Both the position numbers and the translations under genes were made by a program. Under the pieces are notes generated by a model that saw only the letters and a list, made by a program, of their open reading frames with translations, did not search any database and had not been told where the DNA came from. From Siniperca chuatsi (lineage: Eukaryota > Chordata > Actinopteri > Centrarchiformes > Sinipercidae), in the NCBI RefSeq assembly GCF_020085105.1, contig NC_058046.1, forward strand, positions 22,967,675 through 23,031,674: 64,000 nucleotides of DNA, read 5' to 3'. The stretch's first letter is position 1; the number at the start of each line of letters is the position of its first letter. Shown here piece after piece: positions 11,686-61,119 of this stretch.

Positions 11686-27528
<15,843 letters not shown>

Positions 27529-34637: not shown

Positions 34638-34643
34638 TTTATT
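34638..34643 (-). terminator. selenop: Candidate selenop poly(A) signal
   Basis: TTTATT on the plus strand is AATAAA on the minus strand. It is the first canonical signal I found downstream of the selenop stop, about 1.1 kb away. A 3' UTR of that size would leave room for the SECIS elements this gene needs. Variant signals such as AATAAG nearer the stop cannot be excluded. Confidence 0.35.
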
Positions 34644-35382
34644 CAATTCATAGTTTCCATGTTTGACTACCTTAACACAATACTGTTCTCTGTGCAAGCA
34701 TCAGGTTTTCAAGGTGACTGTTATCTTCCCGCAGAAACCATCATTAAGTACAGAGTGTATTCCAACAGTCATTCATTGCTTCACTCTCATTTTCCCTCTT
34801 CTTTTCTAAACAATAGAGCCTTGTTTTGGTTTTTTTGTGTTTTGCAAGCCTTGTATAAACGTGTGCAATTTGAAATCTACGTAGCAAATTTAGAAAATGC
34901 AAAGAAAAAATATACAGGAATGCCAAGTACTCAACATCGATGGTGTGCACGTTTGTGGTAAAGATACACCTGATGTATGTTTAAGCTTGTGGACTTTATC
35001 AACAAGTACAAGACAAAAAGAAAGTCATTCATGGTAGTTAGTGCTGTTATATGTGCTCAAGAACAATCAATAGCATACAGACAAACACATCATTGGTATA
35101 AATGTTTTTAGGTTTGCTTTTAAATGTTTTTAGGACTTGTACCAGTAATTGGCCAGTGCTTTCAGATTTCCCCTTCAGAGATTTCTGGTAATTACCTAAT
35201 TCACATAATCTGATGTACTGTAATAGTATCTTTTCTTATTCTTCCTTAATCATTTGTTTTTTGTAGTATTTGCAAATTCTATCTATTTTTTTGTTACTTC
35301 AAATATCCTTTGATACTGAACTTTGAAATATCATAAAGTGTTTATCATGTTCCTGAACTACCCTCTCCTCCTTCTCCTGCCT

Positions 35383-35434
35383 GACTTCATACAGACGCCA
35401 CTAGAGCATAGTTTCTGCGCCTGGTTTCATAAAG
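35383..35434 (-). promoter_or_regulatory. selenop: SECIS-like hairpin in selenop 3' UTR
   Basis: Read on the minus strand: ATGA at 35430-35427, 12 bases to an AAAC at 35414-35411, then 21 bases to TGA at 35389-35387. Arms CAGGCGC (35423-35417) and GCGTCTG (35398-35392) can form a 7-bp stem, including one G-U pair, that holds the AAAC in the apical loop. This spacing of ATGA, AA and NGAN fits the eukaryotic SECIS consensus. Two mismatches lie between the quartet and the stem, and I could not run a SECIS program. It lies about 330 bases past the TAA stop. Selenoprotein P mRNAs usually carry two SECIS elements; I did not find a second convincing one. Confidence 0.5.
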
Positions 35435-35759
35435 GATGGAGAGAGCAAAACGGAGGAGGCAATTTATGAACATGATAACCACATACACCAAAGGGTGAGA
35501 GCAACCCCCTGACAGACATGCTGAGACAGGTGAAACAGGACACGGACAACAAGCTGCCAATACATGCTTTGGTTGGTGTGTTATCTGCCTTATTTTGTCT
35601 TTATCAGTGTGATGTTGGACTGCACCTGTTCATCCATCCCACATCTATGCTGTCAGGAATTGCCCTGTCCTCTCCCAGGGTAATACTTGTTGGTAAAAAA
35701 GAGCGCTTGGCCCCGGTGTTTCTGGCTGGTATTAATATGAGGCTGATATCAGAGCCAGT

Positions 35760-37632
35760 TTACAGCTGCTCTCATCCTAAGCTCACACCTGGGGAACCGG
35801 CTCATTGGACTGGCTGAGGCTGCTGTCAGTCAGCAGGACGCGAGCGTCACTGTCAGGTCTCCCTGACATTAGTGGCTGCATCGCCTATCAGTCCGTGTCA
35901 CTGTCAGGAGGCGGGCAGTGCCTCATCACAGTGTCAGAGACCGACCGGCTGCTCACTCTCTGCATCACCAAACAGCCTGCGTCAGTGTCAGCATCAGCTG
36001 GCCTTAGGAGAGGCTTCATTGTCAGAGCCTGCTGTCCACTGTCAGCTGTGCTTTGACTTTCACCTAGCTTTCTCTGTCACTCAAGGCCTCACAGGGGCTC
36101 CATGGACCCTCTGTGTCATCTGGTGCATGTGCACTGCTTGCTGTATCTGGCCTAAATCTAAATGAAGTTGGCTTTGAGATACTCCACCACTTTGTCTACG
36201 GTCACTGCCATGGACAGCGTCATCATGATTTCCATGGTGATGACCATGGTTGTGATCACTGCCTTGACCAACGCCACGGGGGTGAAAATCATGATTATCC
36301 CCATGGTGGCCATGACCATGGTGATGTCCATGATGGTGACCACGCCCGTGATCATGATGGTGACCACGTCCGGTGTCTTCCTCTACAGGTGGGGTGCCAT
36401 CTGCATCAGGCTGTGCATCTGCTTTCTCTTTGCACTCCTCTGGTGTCTCAGTGCTCTGTGGAAAAAAAGCCAAAATAAATTTCAGTGTATGAGCTTATCT
36501 TTGATCAAATGTGTTACCAACACATTATCTGAGGACTAATATTTGTTTAAATTAATGTGTATTCTTGCAGTTATGTGTGGTCTATACCTCATGTGTGCAG
36601 TCCCCACATATGCGTTTGCAGTAGGTATCTTTGATAGCACCTTCAACATGGCCTTGTCCGATGATTGAGTATGGAAGTGAAATGTGATGGGTGAGACGGC
36701 CACACCTGATGGCAAAGGGATAGAAAAGCGTGGTGAGGAAACGAATAAATAAAAATATGTGCTCTTGATCCTTGCAAAATGTGAATGAACTATCCACTAC
36801 AGGTAACAAACCTGTCATAAATGAGAAAATCATCTTTCTCTCCGCTCAGTGTCTGCCAGACATCAGGCTGTTGCTCGTCCTGTTTGTAGAGTGTGATGTT
36901 CTCTGACAGTCTCTGTGCCAGCATGGTGTGCAGGTGCTGTGCTTGCGCCCCCTGGTGGTTAACAACCATGTAGACCACATCCTTCAGACCCTGACTCTCC
37001 AGCTTTTGGCGCAGGCCATCCATTCTGCTCAGATGAGGGAAATCAGAGACCATGAGTTTAAAAATCAGTTGTCAAGTAACAAAGTTTTTAATAAAGTTTT
37101 CCTGGATAGTCTGCTTAACAAACAAGAATGAACAGGATGCACTTCTTCGACATTGAACTTTGTAATTGTTGCATAAGAAAGACCAGTCTTAACTTGCTAT
37201 AAGTTGCTGCCAACTTGGCAAGCCTTACAGAATGGGCCATACAATTTAACTGACACTGTTAAATATCTGATACCATTTCTCTAATACTTCCTCACTAACC
37301 AAGCAGTGTGCATGTTTTGCCACAGATTTAGGACTCCTGGGGTGATGCAATGTAATGTCATGTTTTGTTTTGTTTTTTTAATGGACATGGGTCAAGGAGG
37401 GCAGTGGCTAACATGTAATGGGCACATACCTGGAAGCCTGCACCAAGCAGAACAATCAGCTGGCCTGGAAAAGTGCCACCACCGTCACCTGGCCCATCGC
37501 CCCCTTCATTGGCTCCACCTCCCCTATCTTCCAGGCTGGCGGCAGCTGACAGCGGGACCCACCCCCGTCACTCTCTGCCCCGCCCCCGTGGAGCAGGCAG
37601 AGAGTGATGAGCAGGCTGAGGCACGCCCACAT
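35760..37632 (-). CDS. selenop: Selenoprotein P with 15 predicted selenocysteines
   Basis: Secreted plasma protein that carries selenium from liver to other tissues, with a redox-active N-terminal domain. Coding exons on the minus strand: 37632-37430, 37024-36812, 36705-36588, 36455-35760; GT-AG junctions in phase, 409 codons plus TAA at 35762-35760. Seen: signal peptide starting [17 protein letters not shown]; a thioredoxin-like domain with QASULFC, where U is an in-frame TGA (residue 59) forming Uxx[20 protein letters not shown]; a histidine-rich stretch ([14 protein letters not shown], about residues 215-260); then a Sec-rich tail with TGA at residues 303, 310, 316, 332, 334, 336, 352, 362, 364, 379, 381, 388, 396 and 406. 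The tail segments [14 protein letters not shown] and ADUQQ resemble the human C-terminus. That tail, absent from the short fish paralogue selenop2, identifies selenop1. A naive scan would stop at 36081. Confidence 0.93.
35763..36083 (-). other. selenop: Sec-rich C-terminal tail hidden behind TGA codons
   Basis: This block is 107 codons in the selenop frame, with fourteen TGA, no TAA and no TAG, ended by TAA at 35762-35760. TGA codons have their first base at 36083, 36062, 36044, 35996, 35990, 35984, 35936, 35906, 35900, 35855, 35849, 35828, 35804 and 35774. Most are followed by CAG, CAC or CGC, giving repeated UQ, UH and UR pairs as in known selenoprotein P tails. In mammals this region is the selenium-delivery part of the protein. 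Confidence 0.9.
36210..36400 (-). other. selenop: Histidine-rich coding segment of selenop
   Basis: Imperfect CAC/CAT-rich tandem codons encode [19 protein letters not shown] and related HGHHHGN units. In selenoprotein P such segments bind heparin and divalent metals. The opposite strand gives long methionine- and valine-rich open frames purely as a mirror of the histidine codons; they are not genes. Confidence 0.85.
37456..37458 (-). other. selenop: In-frame TGA (Sec) of the UxxC redox motif
   Basis: In the first coding exon the frame reads GCC AGC TGA TTG TTC TGC, that is A-S-U-L-F-C. Both flanks match the conserved selenoprotein P N-terminal domain and the frame continues into two spliced exons. 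The TGA must therefore be read as selenocysteine 59 rather than stop. Confidence 0.92.
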
Positions 37633-38351: not shown

Positions 38352-38358
38352 TTTTATA
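38352..38358 (-). promoter_or_regulatory. selenop: TATA box of the selenop promoter
   Basis: TATAAAA on the minus strand followed by GGGGGG, placed about 30 bases upstream of the presumed start of exon 1. TATA-driven initiation suits a highly expressed liver secretory protein gene. Confidence 0.55.
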
Positions 38359-42940: not shown

Positions 42941-45900
42941 ATGGCGGCTGAGGTGGAGGTGGAGGTGGACAGAGGCAGTGAGTACCCAGCACACTACAAA
43001 GTCATGATGGACAAACTTAATGAACAACGACAGCTGGACCAGTTCACAGACATTACCTTAATTGTGGATGGTGAGTAGGCACACATTATAGGTCATTTTT
43101 ATGATGTCTTAGTGAAATTCCTAAGCAGTGCTTTTCATTTCCATGCCTATTGTCTCTTGCAGGACACCAGTTCAGAGCCCATAAAGCAGTGTTGGCAGCA
43201 TGCAGTCAGTTTTTCCATAAGTTCTTCCAGGATTTTACCCAGGAGCCACTGGTGGAGATAGAAGGTACTCTGTGTTTTAATTGAATTTTTTTTTTTTAAG
43301 TAGTCAGACAGCAGACAGGGGACTGTAAACCTCTTATTTGCAAGCAAAAACAATGTGGATTTTAAGTTTATTACCCAAACTGTCAGTTGTCAACATCCAT
43401 TAGAGAGGTAGTTCCTGGATCAATTTTGTAATTACTTAAATGACTTTAGTTGTGTGCACATGTAGTTTTACAAAGCCATTAATGATTATAACTGATCTTT
43501 TACTGAAGTTTTTACTTTCAGGTAAATGGTTTTGAGAAATTTGGATTAACAATTGTTTTGTTTAGAGCATGTCTGATTGTCTGAACACATGTGTTGCTTG
43601 CTTGTCTGGAATCTACCCTCCACTGTTGCTACTTCTAGAAGAATCATCATATTCCCCAGCTCTCAGCAATGAAACGGAGTAAAATGTCATCATAACTGAT
43701 AGGGACAATGGCCAAAACTATGAAAATATGACCCAGGTTGAAAAATGTAAATGTCTTTTTAATATATAAAAGTAAAGGGGCATTATAAACATTGTAAATG
43801 TGCTTTATGTTCCAAACAGCTCCAGCTAAGAATTTGCTGCTACAGATATGTTTTCCTGTGTTTGTTACTATGTTATGTGGAACAACTTTTACTCACCACT
43901 GCTGCTCTGTCATACTCTGACAGGAGTGAGTAACACAGCTTTTCGCCAGCTGATGGAGTTCACTTACACAGCAACACTAGTTGTAGCTGGAGAAGAGGAA
44001 GCCTATGATGTCTGGAAGGCTGCTGAATACCTCCAGATGCAGGAAGCCATCAAAGCACTCAATAAGTGAGACTTGCATACAGTTGACCTGTCACCTTTCA
44101 CTGCTCGAGAAGCTTAAACTGCGTCACTAGAAATCAAAATATAACTATAAGAATTAAAGTGATGTAATTGACGAATGTAGTGGTTCACTGTTTTGTCAGA
44201 TAGAAAGGAATTTGTCTCAGGATTCCTTACTATAAACATTGTTGTCCCTCAATAAGAGCTCATCTTCTCTTGTAGGACAAATGAGAATCCCTCGCCGACA
44301 GCAAAGAGCAAAAGTAAAAAGAGGAAGATTGCTGAGACATCTAATGTGATTACAGAAACCCTACCTTCAGTGGAAGGGGAACAGGTTAGTATGTTCATGA
44401 TGGTCATAGAGATATAGTTCCTTGTAAAGCAGTGGACAATAAGATTGGCTGAAATTTCAGTGACTGGCTCTATTTTTCCACCACTAAGATCAATTGTTGG
44501 TGCTAAAATCCCCTAATGTATGAAGTGAACACAAGTGGCCCTTACTTTGTCCACGCATCATATTGTCAGGACTGAATGTTTTCAATGTTCTCCAGGTGGA
44601 GATTGAGTTGATAGGAGAGGGGGCCATTGAGGTGGAGGAGACTGGACTGGAGGAGGTGGTCGATGCTGCAAAGAATGCTCAGGCAGCGTCCGATGACTCT
44701 GCTTTGGCTCTTCTTGCTGACATAACCAGCAAGTATCAGCAAGGGGAACCTACGCTACAGGTCATTAAGAAGGGAGAAATAGAAGAGGTACATTGACTTG
44801 TATTTGTACAAACCTTAATTTAAGCTGAGTTTTGTGTTCTTTTGGTTTATTAATTGGTAAACTATGGATATAGGGTAAGAGTTGTAGATGTGAAAGGATT
44901 AACCCTGCTTTGCCTGTGTTTGTGCTTGGCAGGAGGTGGTGTATCAGGAAGAAATGGTGACTGCCTCCAAGGTACTGGAGAATGTCGAGGTCGTAGAGGT
45001 CCAGATTTCCCAAGTGGATAACATGTTCCGCTGCAACAAGTGTGATCGTAGCTTCAAGTTGTACTATCACCTCAAACAGCACTTGAAAACACACCTGGGC
45101 TCGCTGGAAAAACCCCATGTGTGCCACCACTGCGGTAAAGCCTACACGCGGGAGGGCGCCTTGAAGCAGCACATCAGCACGTTTCATTTTGATGCAGAAG
45201 AGCTGTCTCGAAACCAGAAACCCCAGAAGAAAGTGCATGTTTGTGAATACTGTAGAAAGCACTTTGACCACTTCGGCCACTTTAAGGAGCACTTGCGGAA
45301 GCACACTGGTGAGAATGGGAAAAAAAAAGCTGGTTGTGTTCAGTTTCTTAATATGCAAATTACTCAACTTAGTACATTCACAATTATGTATCGTTGACCC
45401 ATGTAGCATTGAAATAAGTGCTATGTTTTATATGTCTTTATATGTCTGTCTGTAGGTGAAAAACCTTATGAGTGTCCAGATTGCCACGAGCGATTTGCAA
45501 GGAACAGCACACTGAAGTGCCATATGGCAGCCTGTCAGAATGGGGCCGGAGCCAAGAAAGGACGCAAGAAACTCTATGAATGCCAGGTACAGTTTGTCCA
45601 GAATCAAGGCCACCAAGCGCTCCTAGACCAGTGCAATGTCAACAGTAGAAAAAGATGTTGCAAATGTTTTTTTTCACATTCTGTAAATGCATTTATTCAC
45701 TTAATGCTGAAAGACATTCTGATATATGGATCCTTTAGTGTGCAGACAGATGTATTGAATGATGTAATAATACTGTATGTACTGATGTATTGTCATACAG
45801 TTTCTTAGATTGTGGTGGTTTACTTTGGGAAATGTAGTTTAACAATTAATAGTTATTGCCAAGTATAAACTGTCAGTATGAAAGTGGTAACAACAGAAAC

Positions 45901-47088
45901 TGTTTTTACTATATATTCACATCTGATTTAATGTCAGGTTTTTTCTGATAATTGCCCTACAGTCGAGTGTTTGCACCTAATCTAAGTCATTTAATATCTG
46001 ATTATACTGGGTATTCGTAAACTACATAGGCCAGATATGATTGACTGGTGAATAATGTATTTCTGTATTAAGAAAATACAGTTTGCATCACAGCCTCCAT
46101 TAATGGTTGCAAGTTAACAAAGGAACAGAGTAGAGCTGAAAGAATTAGTTGATCTATCGGTTATTCGATAGATGAAAAATTAATCTGTAACTACTTACAT
46201 AATTGATTAATTGTTAAAGTAACTTTTCAAGCAAAAATGTCAAATAATTGATGGTTCCAGTTTCTGAAATGTGAGAATGTGTTGCTTTTCTTGGTCTTAC
46301 AGTAAATTTAATATTTTTTTGTTTTGGACTGCTGGGTTGTACAAAACAAGTGTATAATTGAGGGCATTTGTCACTTTTTTCTGAAGTTTTATAGCCCCCG
46401 CGATTAATCTTCCGATCTTCCATGGGGACATCCCTATCTTCTAGTGAATCTAGTATGTTTTATCAGTTCACTTCCTATGTTACTCAAAGGGAAGAATGCT
46501 GATGGTCCTCTCTTTTCTTCTATGACCGTAACATACTATTTTCTCCAACTCCTCCATCAGGTCTGCAGCAGTGTATTCAACAGCTGGGACCAGTTCAAAG
46601 ACCATCTTGTGAGCCACACAGGAGTCAAGCCCAACCACTGCACCATGTGTGACATGTGGTTCACCCACCCAAAAGAACTAAAGGCCCATCTCAAACATAT
46701 CCATTCCATTGAGGACAACAAGTCAACTGAAGAAGTGGTCATCACTGACTCTGCGGCTGCCGCCGCCCTCACCATCACGACACAGGGCATAGACGGAGCC
46801 GAAACGGTCCTGCTGGACGATGGAATCCAGGTGGAACACGTCACAGTGGAGCCTGTGGATGTGATGGAGATGGAGGAGACTGCAACAGTTGTGGTGGAGG
46901 ACGGAGGGGTGGCAGAGATGTGTGAGGAGGACGTGGAGAGATTAAAGCGGGCCGGGGTGCAGATCCAGGTGGTGCACGTGACCACGACTGAAGTTGACGG
47001 GCAGCAGGTGGTGAACTCTCAGGTAGAAGTAGAGATGGAGGGTGAAATTGTGAACGTTGAGGAGGCAGAACAAGCAGTGGTTGTATGA
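42941..47088 (+). CDS. znf131: BTB/POZ zinc-finger protein ZNF131
   Basis: Nuclear BTB zinc-finger transcription regulator. Coding exons: 42941-43070, 43163-43264, 43924-44065, 44276-44384, 44596-44787, 44933-45308, 45456-45586, 46561-47088; all in phase, 569 residues. Seen: N-terminal BTB domain (FTDITLIVDGHQFRAHKAVL, FxEFTYTATL, WKAAEYLQM); a basic stretch KSKSKKRKIAETSNVITE, a likely nuclear signal; a conserved DDSALALLADITSKY block; then six zinc fingers at about residues 257-443 (for example FRCNKC, VCHHC, VCEYC, YECPDC, YECQVC, HCTMC). The fourth ends HMAAC, so it may be a C2HC type. The tail is acidic, rich in V, E and T. Start ATGGCGGCTG follows the acceptor by 18 bases. Upstream splicing and the CpG-type promoter suggest housekeeping expression. 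Close in length and layout to mammalian ZNF131. Confidence 0.95.
46131..46330 (+). repeat. Decayed repeat of the CAACTA..ATCGATTAAT family, copy 2
   Basis: Lies in the last znf131 intron. Starts AGAGCTGAAAGAATTAGTTG, contains ATTCGATAGATGAAAAATTA and later TTTTCAAGCAAAAATGTCAA. Same orientation as 13075-13200. Non-coding. Confidence 0.5.
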
Positions 47089-47632
47089 GAATGTGAAAAG
47101 GACTGTGTCTTAAATGACCTGCAGGACATTCTTTCAGTCCTGAGCAGTTGCATTATCCTGTAGCTGACATCTTAGTTTCCATAAAGAACACTGCATGTGG
47201 GATAAAGCATGTTACTTCAAGATGTCCTGCTGTCTGCCATCACATTGAATGACTCGGTTCCCACCAACCTCACACATTGAACTCGGAGTTATGGACAGTT
47301 ATATAATTTCCTGCTAATGATCCTGTATTTATTATAAAGCTCTTTGCCATCATATCATATTCTCTGTGATTCTTCAGTGCTTCATCACTCTTCATCAATT
47401 TTCATGTGGTTTTTTTTTTTCTGTGTTCTTATTTTACCTCAAATGTATGTTATGTTATTTTAGTTTGGGTCACATGCCAAGACAATTTGACAATGAATGA
47501 AGTTTTCTTGTTGCAGCTCATTAAACAACTGATATATGGTGCTGATGTTCTTCAGTGCTAATGCTACAGTTTTGTTCAAAGTTCTTATTGACTTTTGGTG
47601 TTTTTGTAGGAAAAACTCATATATGGAATAAA
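47089..47632 (+). terminator. znf131: znf131 3' UTR and poly(A) signal
   Basis: Non-coding sequence after the stop. AATAAA at 47627-47632 lies 539 bases downstream of the TGA and is the most likely cleavage signal, as no earlier canonical AATAAA is visible. Confidence 0.55.
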
Positions 47633-59600: not shown

Positions 59601-61119
59601 TACTTAAAAATACTCTGTTTGTAATAATGATTTGTGTCTGATGTTTTATGTTTTTTCAAAAAAAAAAAAAAAAAAAGATTACCAGGAATGCTTAAAATGA
59701 CATCTCCTCCTTCTCCCTCATTGAAAAATCCAGAATTAATGAAAATGTAGATATTGTTCATTTAAAAACTTTAACTGCTGGACACCAGATATCTGCTACT
59801 TCACTGAAAAGTCCATTCTCAGAGTATGTGCACTGGAGGGTTCAAGTTTCCACATCACACTTGTGTAAGTTGCGTATTGGATCATGCTTGGCTCCAAACT
59901 AGTTGTGATGTCACAAAATCCTGCTGGTACATACATGTCTTAAGCAGATGAATGTGAAAACAGCCTTCTAATGTCAAACTCTGTACATACGTCATTCTGC
60001 ACAGTGAAAGTTAAACATCCAAATGAAGTAACAATAAGCAAAACACATTTTTTGATGGATGGGCACTTTAAGCTTCTGCTGCCAATGTGACATTTATCCT
60101 CACCACCAGAATGAATCACTTGGATTCAAACCTAAGAACTCCCACATTTAACAAAATTAGTTTGTAAATGTTTTCTGACAGAAATCAAATTATTAATGAC
60201 AAAGTCCCATGTGTATTATTGTTAAACCTTGATGGATCAAGTATTTACATGCCATAGTTAGTTATGGTCCTGTATTATTAAAATCATGGTTTGGATCATC
60301 TTTAAGCAGCGAATTAACGTGAACGTAGGTGGCTCTTACATAATGCAGTTTCTCCTTGTTCTCCCACAGCATGAAAACAACATCATTCACCGTGACCTGA
60401 AGGCAGAAAATGTCTTCTACACCAGCAGCTCTTTTGTCAAGGTCGGGGACTTTGGCTTTAGCACGCTGAGCCGCCGTAGTGAGACACTGAACACATTCTG
60501 CGGCTCTCCGCCCTACGCCGCGCCTGAGCTCTTTCGGGATGAGCATTATGTTGGCATCTTTGTAGACATCTGGGCCCTGGGGGTGATGCTGTTCTTTATG
60601 GTGACAGGCACCATGCCGTTCAGGGCCGACACTGTGGCCAAACTGAAGCGATGCATCCTGGAGGGAGCCTACATACTGCCCTCGTGGGTGCCAGAGGCAT
60701 GCCAGAGGCTGATCAGGGGAATCCTCCAACCCATACCATCTGACCGCTGCACAGTGGAGCAGATGATGGGCTGTGAGTGGCTGCTTCCTGTGGACTTCCC
60801 GCGTGCCATGGAGCCCTTTAAACTAGACCCATCCCACCTAGCAGAGAGTACTTCACCTGAACTCGGGGAGGAAGAGATGGAGGTAAAGGCAGCACTGGAG
60901 ACACTAGGAATCACCTCAGAACACATCCTCAACAATCAGGGGAAAGACTGCAGGAGCTCCATCACAGGAGTCTATAGGATCCTGCTACACCGTGCTCACA
61001 AGAGACGGGCTGTTGAGAGCATGCCTGCAGTCACACAGGTAGTCAGACCTACTAAAAAGGAACGACTAAAAGTGTACCGTAGTTTAAGGCACACATCTAA
61101 ACTCTGTGTGATTCTGTGA
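56682..61119 (+). CDS. nim1k: Serine/threonine kinase NIM1
   Basis: AMPK-related protein kinase, in mammals activated by LKB1. Coding exons: 56682-56992, 57183-57295, 58758-58879, 59029-59175, 60370-61119; in phase, 480 residues. Seen: a low-complexity Gly/Ser/Thr N-terminus that looks longer than in mammals; glycine loop [14 protein letters not shown]; catalytic lysine in VAIK (K147); an [19 protein letters not shown] helix; HRDLKAEN (238-245); DFG (258-260); activation loop [14 protein letters not shown] with the likely LKB1 target T273; then the C-lobe and a conserved [13 protein letters not shown] segment. The protein ends CVIL, a CaaX-type prenylation motif. The glycine loop reads GCG where mammals have GSG. 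The start is the first ATG in good frame after the acceptor, apart from a 2-codon upstream ORF. Follows znf131 as in mammals. Confidence 0.95.

Follow-up and report, generated by a model that had tools for sequence, protein, structure and literature searches.

Selenoprotein P is the selenium carrier of the blood, and TGA codons within its gene are read as selenocysteine (Sec, written U). The gene is described in human and mouse as having a five-exon layout (PMC2397514). Between the first of its recoded codons, UGA1, and the following intron there are 26 nt, a spacing said to be highly conserved, and both of its selenocysteine insertion sequence (SECIS) elements are of type 2 in fishes; the published model has SECIS 2 acting mainly for UGA1 and SECIS 1 for the later UGAs (PMC5133445). 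Amongst the fish annotated by 2015, a SelPa with 15-17 Sec is the rule (PMC4699779), zebrafish SelPa has 17 (PMC2397514), and up to 37 have been cited for fish (cited in PMC12822975). The stretch analysed here, 64,000 nt of the Siniperca chuatsi genome (NC_058046.1, positions 22,967,675 to 23,031,674; hereafter the window), carries a locus that is, with a probability of about 0.96, the selenoprotein P gene of a bony fish (selenop, SelPa), recoded in the ordinary way through SECIS elements. This identification is based on an open frame with 15 U, the SelP_N and SelP_C domains, two SECIS-like elements, a UGA1 placed 26 nt from an intron, similarity to an approximate human tail, and a nearby growth hormone receptor gene.

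An initial annotation of this DNA had proposed selenoprotein P without naming a strand. The gene lies on the minus strand where 4 coding exons, spliced by eye across three GT...AG introns, give a product of 409 residues in one open frame with 15 in-frame TGA, the length and the Sec number, N-terminal site included, that had been predicted. The features of the transcribed region as far as the stop codon are, in the order of transcription and with their basis in brackets:

38353..38358, minus strand: TATAAA, a possible TATA box 5' of a likely non-coding first exon (sequence; promoter role and first exon putative)
37430..37632, minus strand: coding exon 1, with a predicted signal peptide and the start of SelP_N with the U-L-F-C motif (spliced translation, Pfam)
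37456..37458, minus strand: UGA1, encoding Sec59, 26 nt upstream of the exon end (spliced translation)
36812..37024, minus strand: coding exon 2, SelP_N (spliced translation, Pfam)
36588..36705, minus strand: coding exon 3, SelP_N (spliced translation, Pfam)
35760..36455, minus strand: coding exon 4, with the His-rich region, every C-terminal Sec codon and the closing TAA (spliced translation, Pfam)
35760..36083, minus strand: tail rich in Sec, its 107 codons with 14 in-frame TGA, closed by TAA (spliced translation, codon count)

The distance from UGA1 to the intron is thus the conserved one. The TATAAA and the likely non-coding first exon would match the human and mouse layout of five exons, if the first exon is real. 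On the opposite strand, frame 1 of 35760-36530 was tried as coding sequence and rejected, since it has 3 TAA/TAG stops and 1 TGA and makes no sensible product.

The identity proposed in the initial annotation is borne out at both ends of the protein. Residues 23-255 match Pfam SelP_N (PF04592) over profile positions 1-232 of 234 (E 1e-91, 306.9 bits), with the UxxC motif of that domain present as SULFC at its single Sec, Sec59, and residues 308-396 match SelP_C (PF04593; E 1.2e-12, 48.4 bits against a cut-off of 28.8). Since U is read as Cys in the Pfam searches, composition could mislead, and shuffled and U-masked tails were therefore used as controls. None of the 9 shuffled tails (148 residues each) matched SelP_C, and the real tail, once X had replaced every U, still matched this family and no other, with an E of 9.7e-4 and 19.6 bits, which is below the curated 28.8. 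The family-like segments that had been noticed in the tail are in this sense real. The comparison with fish is based on papers and on approximate sequences from outside the databases, and the human tail used was likewise approximate. Local alignment to this human SELENOP tail scores 147, where 2000 shuffles give 45 +/- 8 and reach 82 at most, and aligns segments such as ETUQUR here to ESCQUR in human. The human protein has the same domain order with 10 Sec, and several of its Cys columns are Sec here. An approximate zebrafish-like SelPa has 14 U/U columns in common with the 15 Sec of this protein and shares the segments RPU, ASUCUHUR, LUHCDE-LPASU and ETUQUR. As judged from these alignments and profiles, homology of the tail to those of other selenoprotein P proteins extends to about residue 396. 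Three sequence matches to solved structures (E 0.096 to 0.64; alignments given for two of them), each over the His-rich region or its edge, were set aside as not credible.

Two candidate SECIS elements, absent from the initial annotation, lie on the selenop strand 3' of the stop codon, followed by a candidate polyadenylation signal:

35376..35438, minus strand: SECIS 1 candidate, 321 nt past the stop, having AUGA/UGA as its core, an AAA and an apical stem of small size (23.8 bits for Rfam SECIS_1, whose gathering score is 35)
34689..34754, minus strand: SECIS 2 candidate, 1005 nt past the stop (20.3 bits for Rfam SECIS_1, under the same gathering score of 35)
34638..34643, minus strand: AATAAA, candidate poly(A) signal, 45 nt past SECIS 2 (sequence)

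At the gathering threshold there are no Rfam matches in the whole window, and SECIS elements were therefore sought at lower scores. When the whole window was searched in three pieces at an E of 10 or better, the sole SECIS_1 match was SECIS 1 (E 1.2), SECIS 2 being too weak at that search size. A hand-made filter for an AUGA...AA...UGA core with an inner and an outer stem, reporting only outer-stem energies no higher than -5, gave three candidates over the 64 kb and both strands: SECIS 1, SECIS 2 and a weaker one at 58902-58862. The thresholds of this filter were set by hand after both elements were known, and the inner energy of SECIS 2 is exactly at the filter limit (-6.0). In both candidates the filter finds the core motifs, the stems and a small apical stem, the last in line with the type 2 SECIS of fishes.

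By analogy with established selenoprotein P biology, the 15 UGA codons of the selenop mRNA would be recoded as selenocysteine by ribosomes, aided by the two SECIS hairpins in the 3' untranslated region, and translation would end at the UAA. The product, whose thioredoxin-like UxxC head is followed by a His-rich middle part and a tail rich in Sec, would be secreted and would bring selenium to tissues via receptors such as ApoER2.

The codon content of the tail is as the initial annotation had it. From the first C-terminal TGA (36083-36081) to the terminal TAA (35762-35760), the 107 codons ahead of that stop contain 14 TGA, no TAA and no TAG, and they make up 26% of the protein (107/409), the quarter that had been claimed. 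It had also been stated that conventional open reading frame (ORF) calling ends at 36081; there is a TGA at that point, but a naive ORF finder would already have been halted by the TGA at 37458. In 5000 dinucleotide-preserving shuffles of the tail, 14 in-frame TGA were never reached (mean 4.3, maximum 13), and a frame free of TAA and TAG arose in 1491, so that the absence of these two stops alone is not unusual. Five stretches of the window combine at least 8 TGA with an absence of TAA and TAG, one of them selenop and four others, with a TGA density of 13% in the selenop tail against 5% at 35479-36552 and 4% at 46395-47303 (13 TGA in 303 codons), both on the plus strand. The TGA count is suggestive and no proof alone, the case being carried by the homology and the SECIS pair.

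The stretch at 35479-36552 on the plus strand runs antisense to selenop for 358 codons; it contains 19 TGA but neither TAA nor TAG, and its TGA density is less than half that of the selenop tail. It most likely arises as a by-product of the selenop coding sequence opposite.

That 15 Sec are notable had been argued from the human number. The human count is indeed exceeded, but 15 is at the low end of what is reported for fish, below the 17 of zebrafish and the 16-17 of salmonid SelPa. The segment UQUR (residues 379-382), which from the alignments to approximate sequences we take to be the counterpart of the ApoER2 site, is followed by three Sec, at 388, 396 and 406. Alignment to the approximate human and zebrafish sequences, a kind of comparison that had been proposed as a check, bears out the tail segments but shows two C-terminal Sec pairs, present as pairs in that zebrafish sequence, each down to a single Sec here. 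In the literature, five Sec past the ApoER2-binding site are described as conserved across vertebrates (PMC4699779), and several Sec at the extreme C-terminus as nearly 100% conserved (PMC2397514). The same literature describes low C-terminal conservation and variable Sec content for this protein, and the five Sec are a described regularity rather than a requirement for a SelPa.

At 35772-35804 on the minus strand, a TTA Leu codon stands two codons ahead of the last TGA; it differs from TGA by a single base and may mark a lost Sec. It is possible, though we hold it only tentatively, that two C-terminal Sec reported as vertebrate-wide have been lost to non-Cys residues in this lineage, as a local relaxation of selenium load past the receptor site in a SelPa that is otherwise Sec-rich. 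The three-Sec end could also be an ordinary trait of the clade to which this fish belongs.

Several points weigh against the assignment of the locus to a working, recoded selenop. The SelP_C match ends at residue 396, at profile position 112 of 133, leaving the last 13 residues, including Sec406, without profile support. Both SECIS candidates score under the Rfam gathering score, with E values of 0.29 and 2.5 in a whole-library search of 5 kb; the canonical SECIS core is not seen in plain minimum-energy folds of 96-nt stretches; and the two elements are spaced by 621 nt, against a vertebrate average of 334 nt (PMC3316567). Three Sec past UQUR, in place of the five said to be conserved, is a mild departure, and the support as a whole is computational, from the sequence of the window. 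This last point, together with the two missing C-terminal Sec, would also suit a recent selenop pseudogene or an assembly artefact that resembles a working gene. Such an origin is very improbable, given that the introns are kept with GT/AG borders and no frameshift, that two SECIS-like elements and the AATAAA are present, and that a growth hormone receptor gene lies nearby, as in human. That the protein truly stops at 36081, where the standard code ends it, with the downstream frame untranslated or a decayed tail, would suit the unsupported last 13 residues and is just as hard to credit, since the SelP_C match lies downstream of that point in a frame without TAA or TAG until 35762, the tail resembles the approximate human tail more closely than any of the 2000 shuffles, and there are two SECIS-like elements.

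The neighbourhood of selenop was scanned through 20 hand-picked ORFs of the 577 in the window. In human the gene order is GHR-SELENOP-ZNF131-NIM1K. A growth hormone receptor (GHR) gene is identified by Pfam PF12772 at 26355-27525 on the plus strand, as two overlapping ORFs in different frames that match consecutive parts of the profile (positions 1-76 and 64-304). A frameshift in this gene was considered and set aside for a probable intron, a GT at about 26645 suggesting that an intron lies within the region. Several C2H2 zinc-finger ORFs at 44903-47088 (plus strand) are perhaps ZNF131, and an ORF with a SIK/MARK/AMPK-like kinase domain at 60262-61119 (plus strand), with SIK3 and MARK kinases as its nearest PDB matches, is perhaps NIM1K, both names being taken from the human gene order. 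None of the neighbour genes sought is named in the text of PMC6301783, figures aside. In human, CCDC152 is described as antisense to SELENOP (PMC8266573).

Neither the number of Sec nor the annotation trap is new, since 15-17 Sec in fish are already in print, as is a survey of the misannotation of vertebrate selenoproteins that includes the truncation problem (PMC12822975). The known recoding mechanism is left unchanged by this gene, which is a textbook example of how UGA is recoded repeatedly and illustrates that the genomes of non-model vertebrates need selenoprotein-aware annotation. In vertebrates, a link has been drawn between the Sec count of selenoprotein P and the requirement for selenium (PMC4699779), and a correct full-length model of this gene may therefore be of some practical use in fish nutrition.
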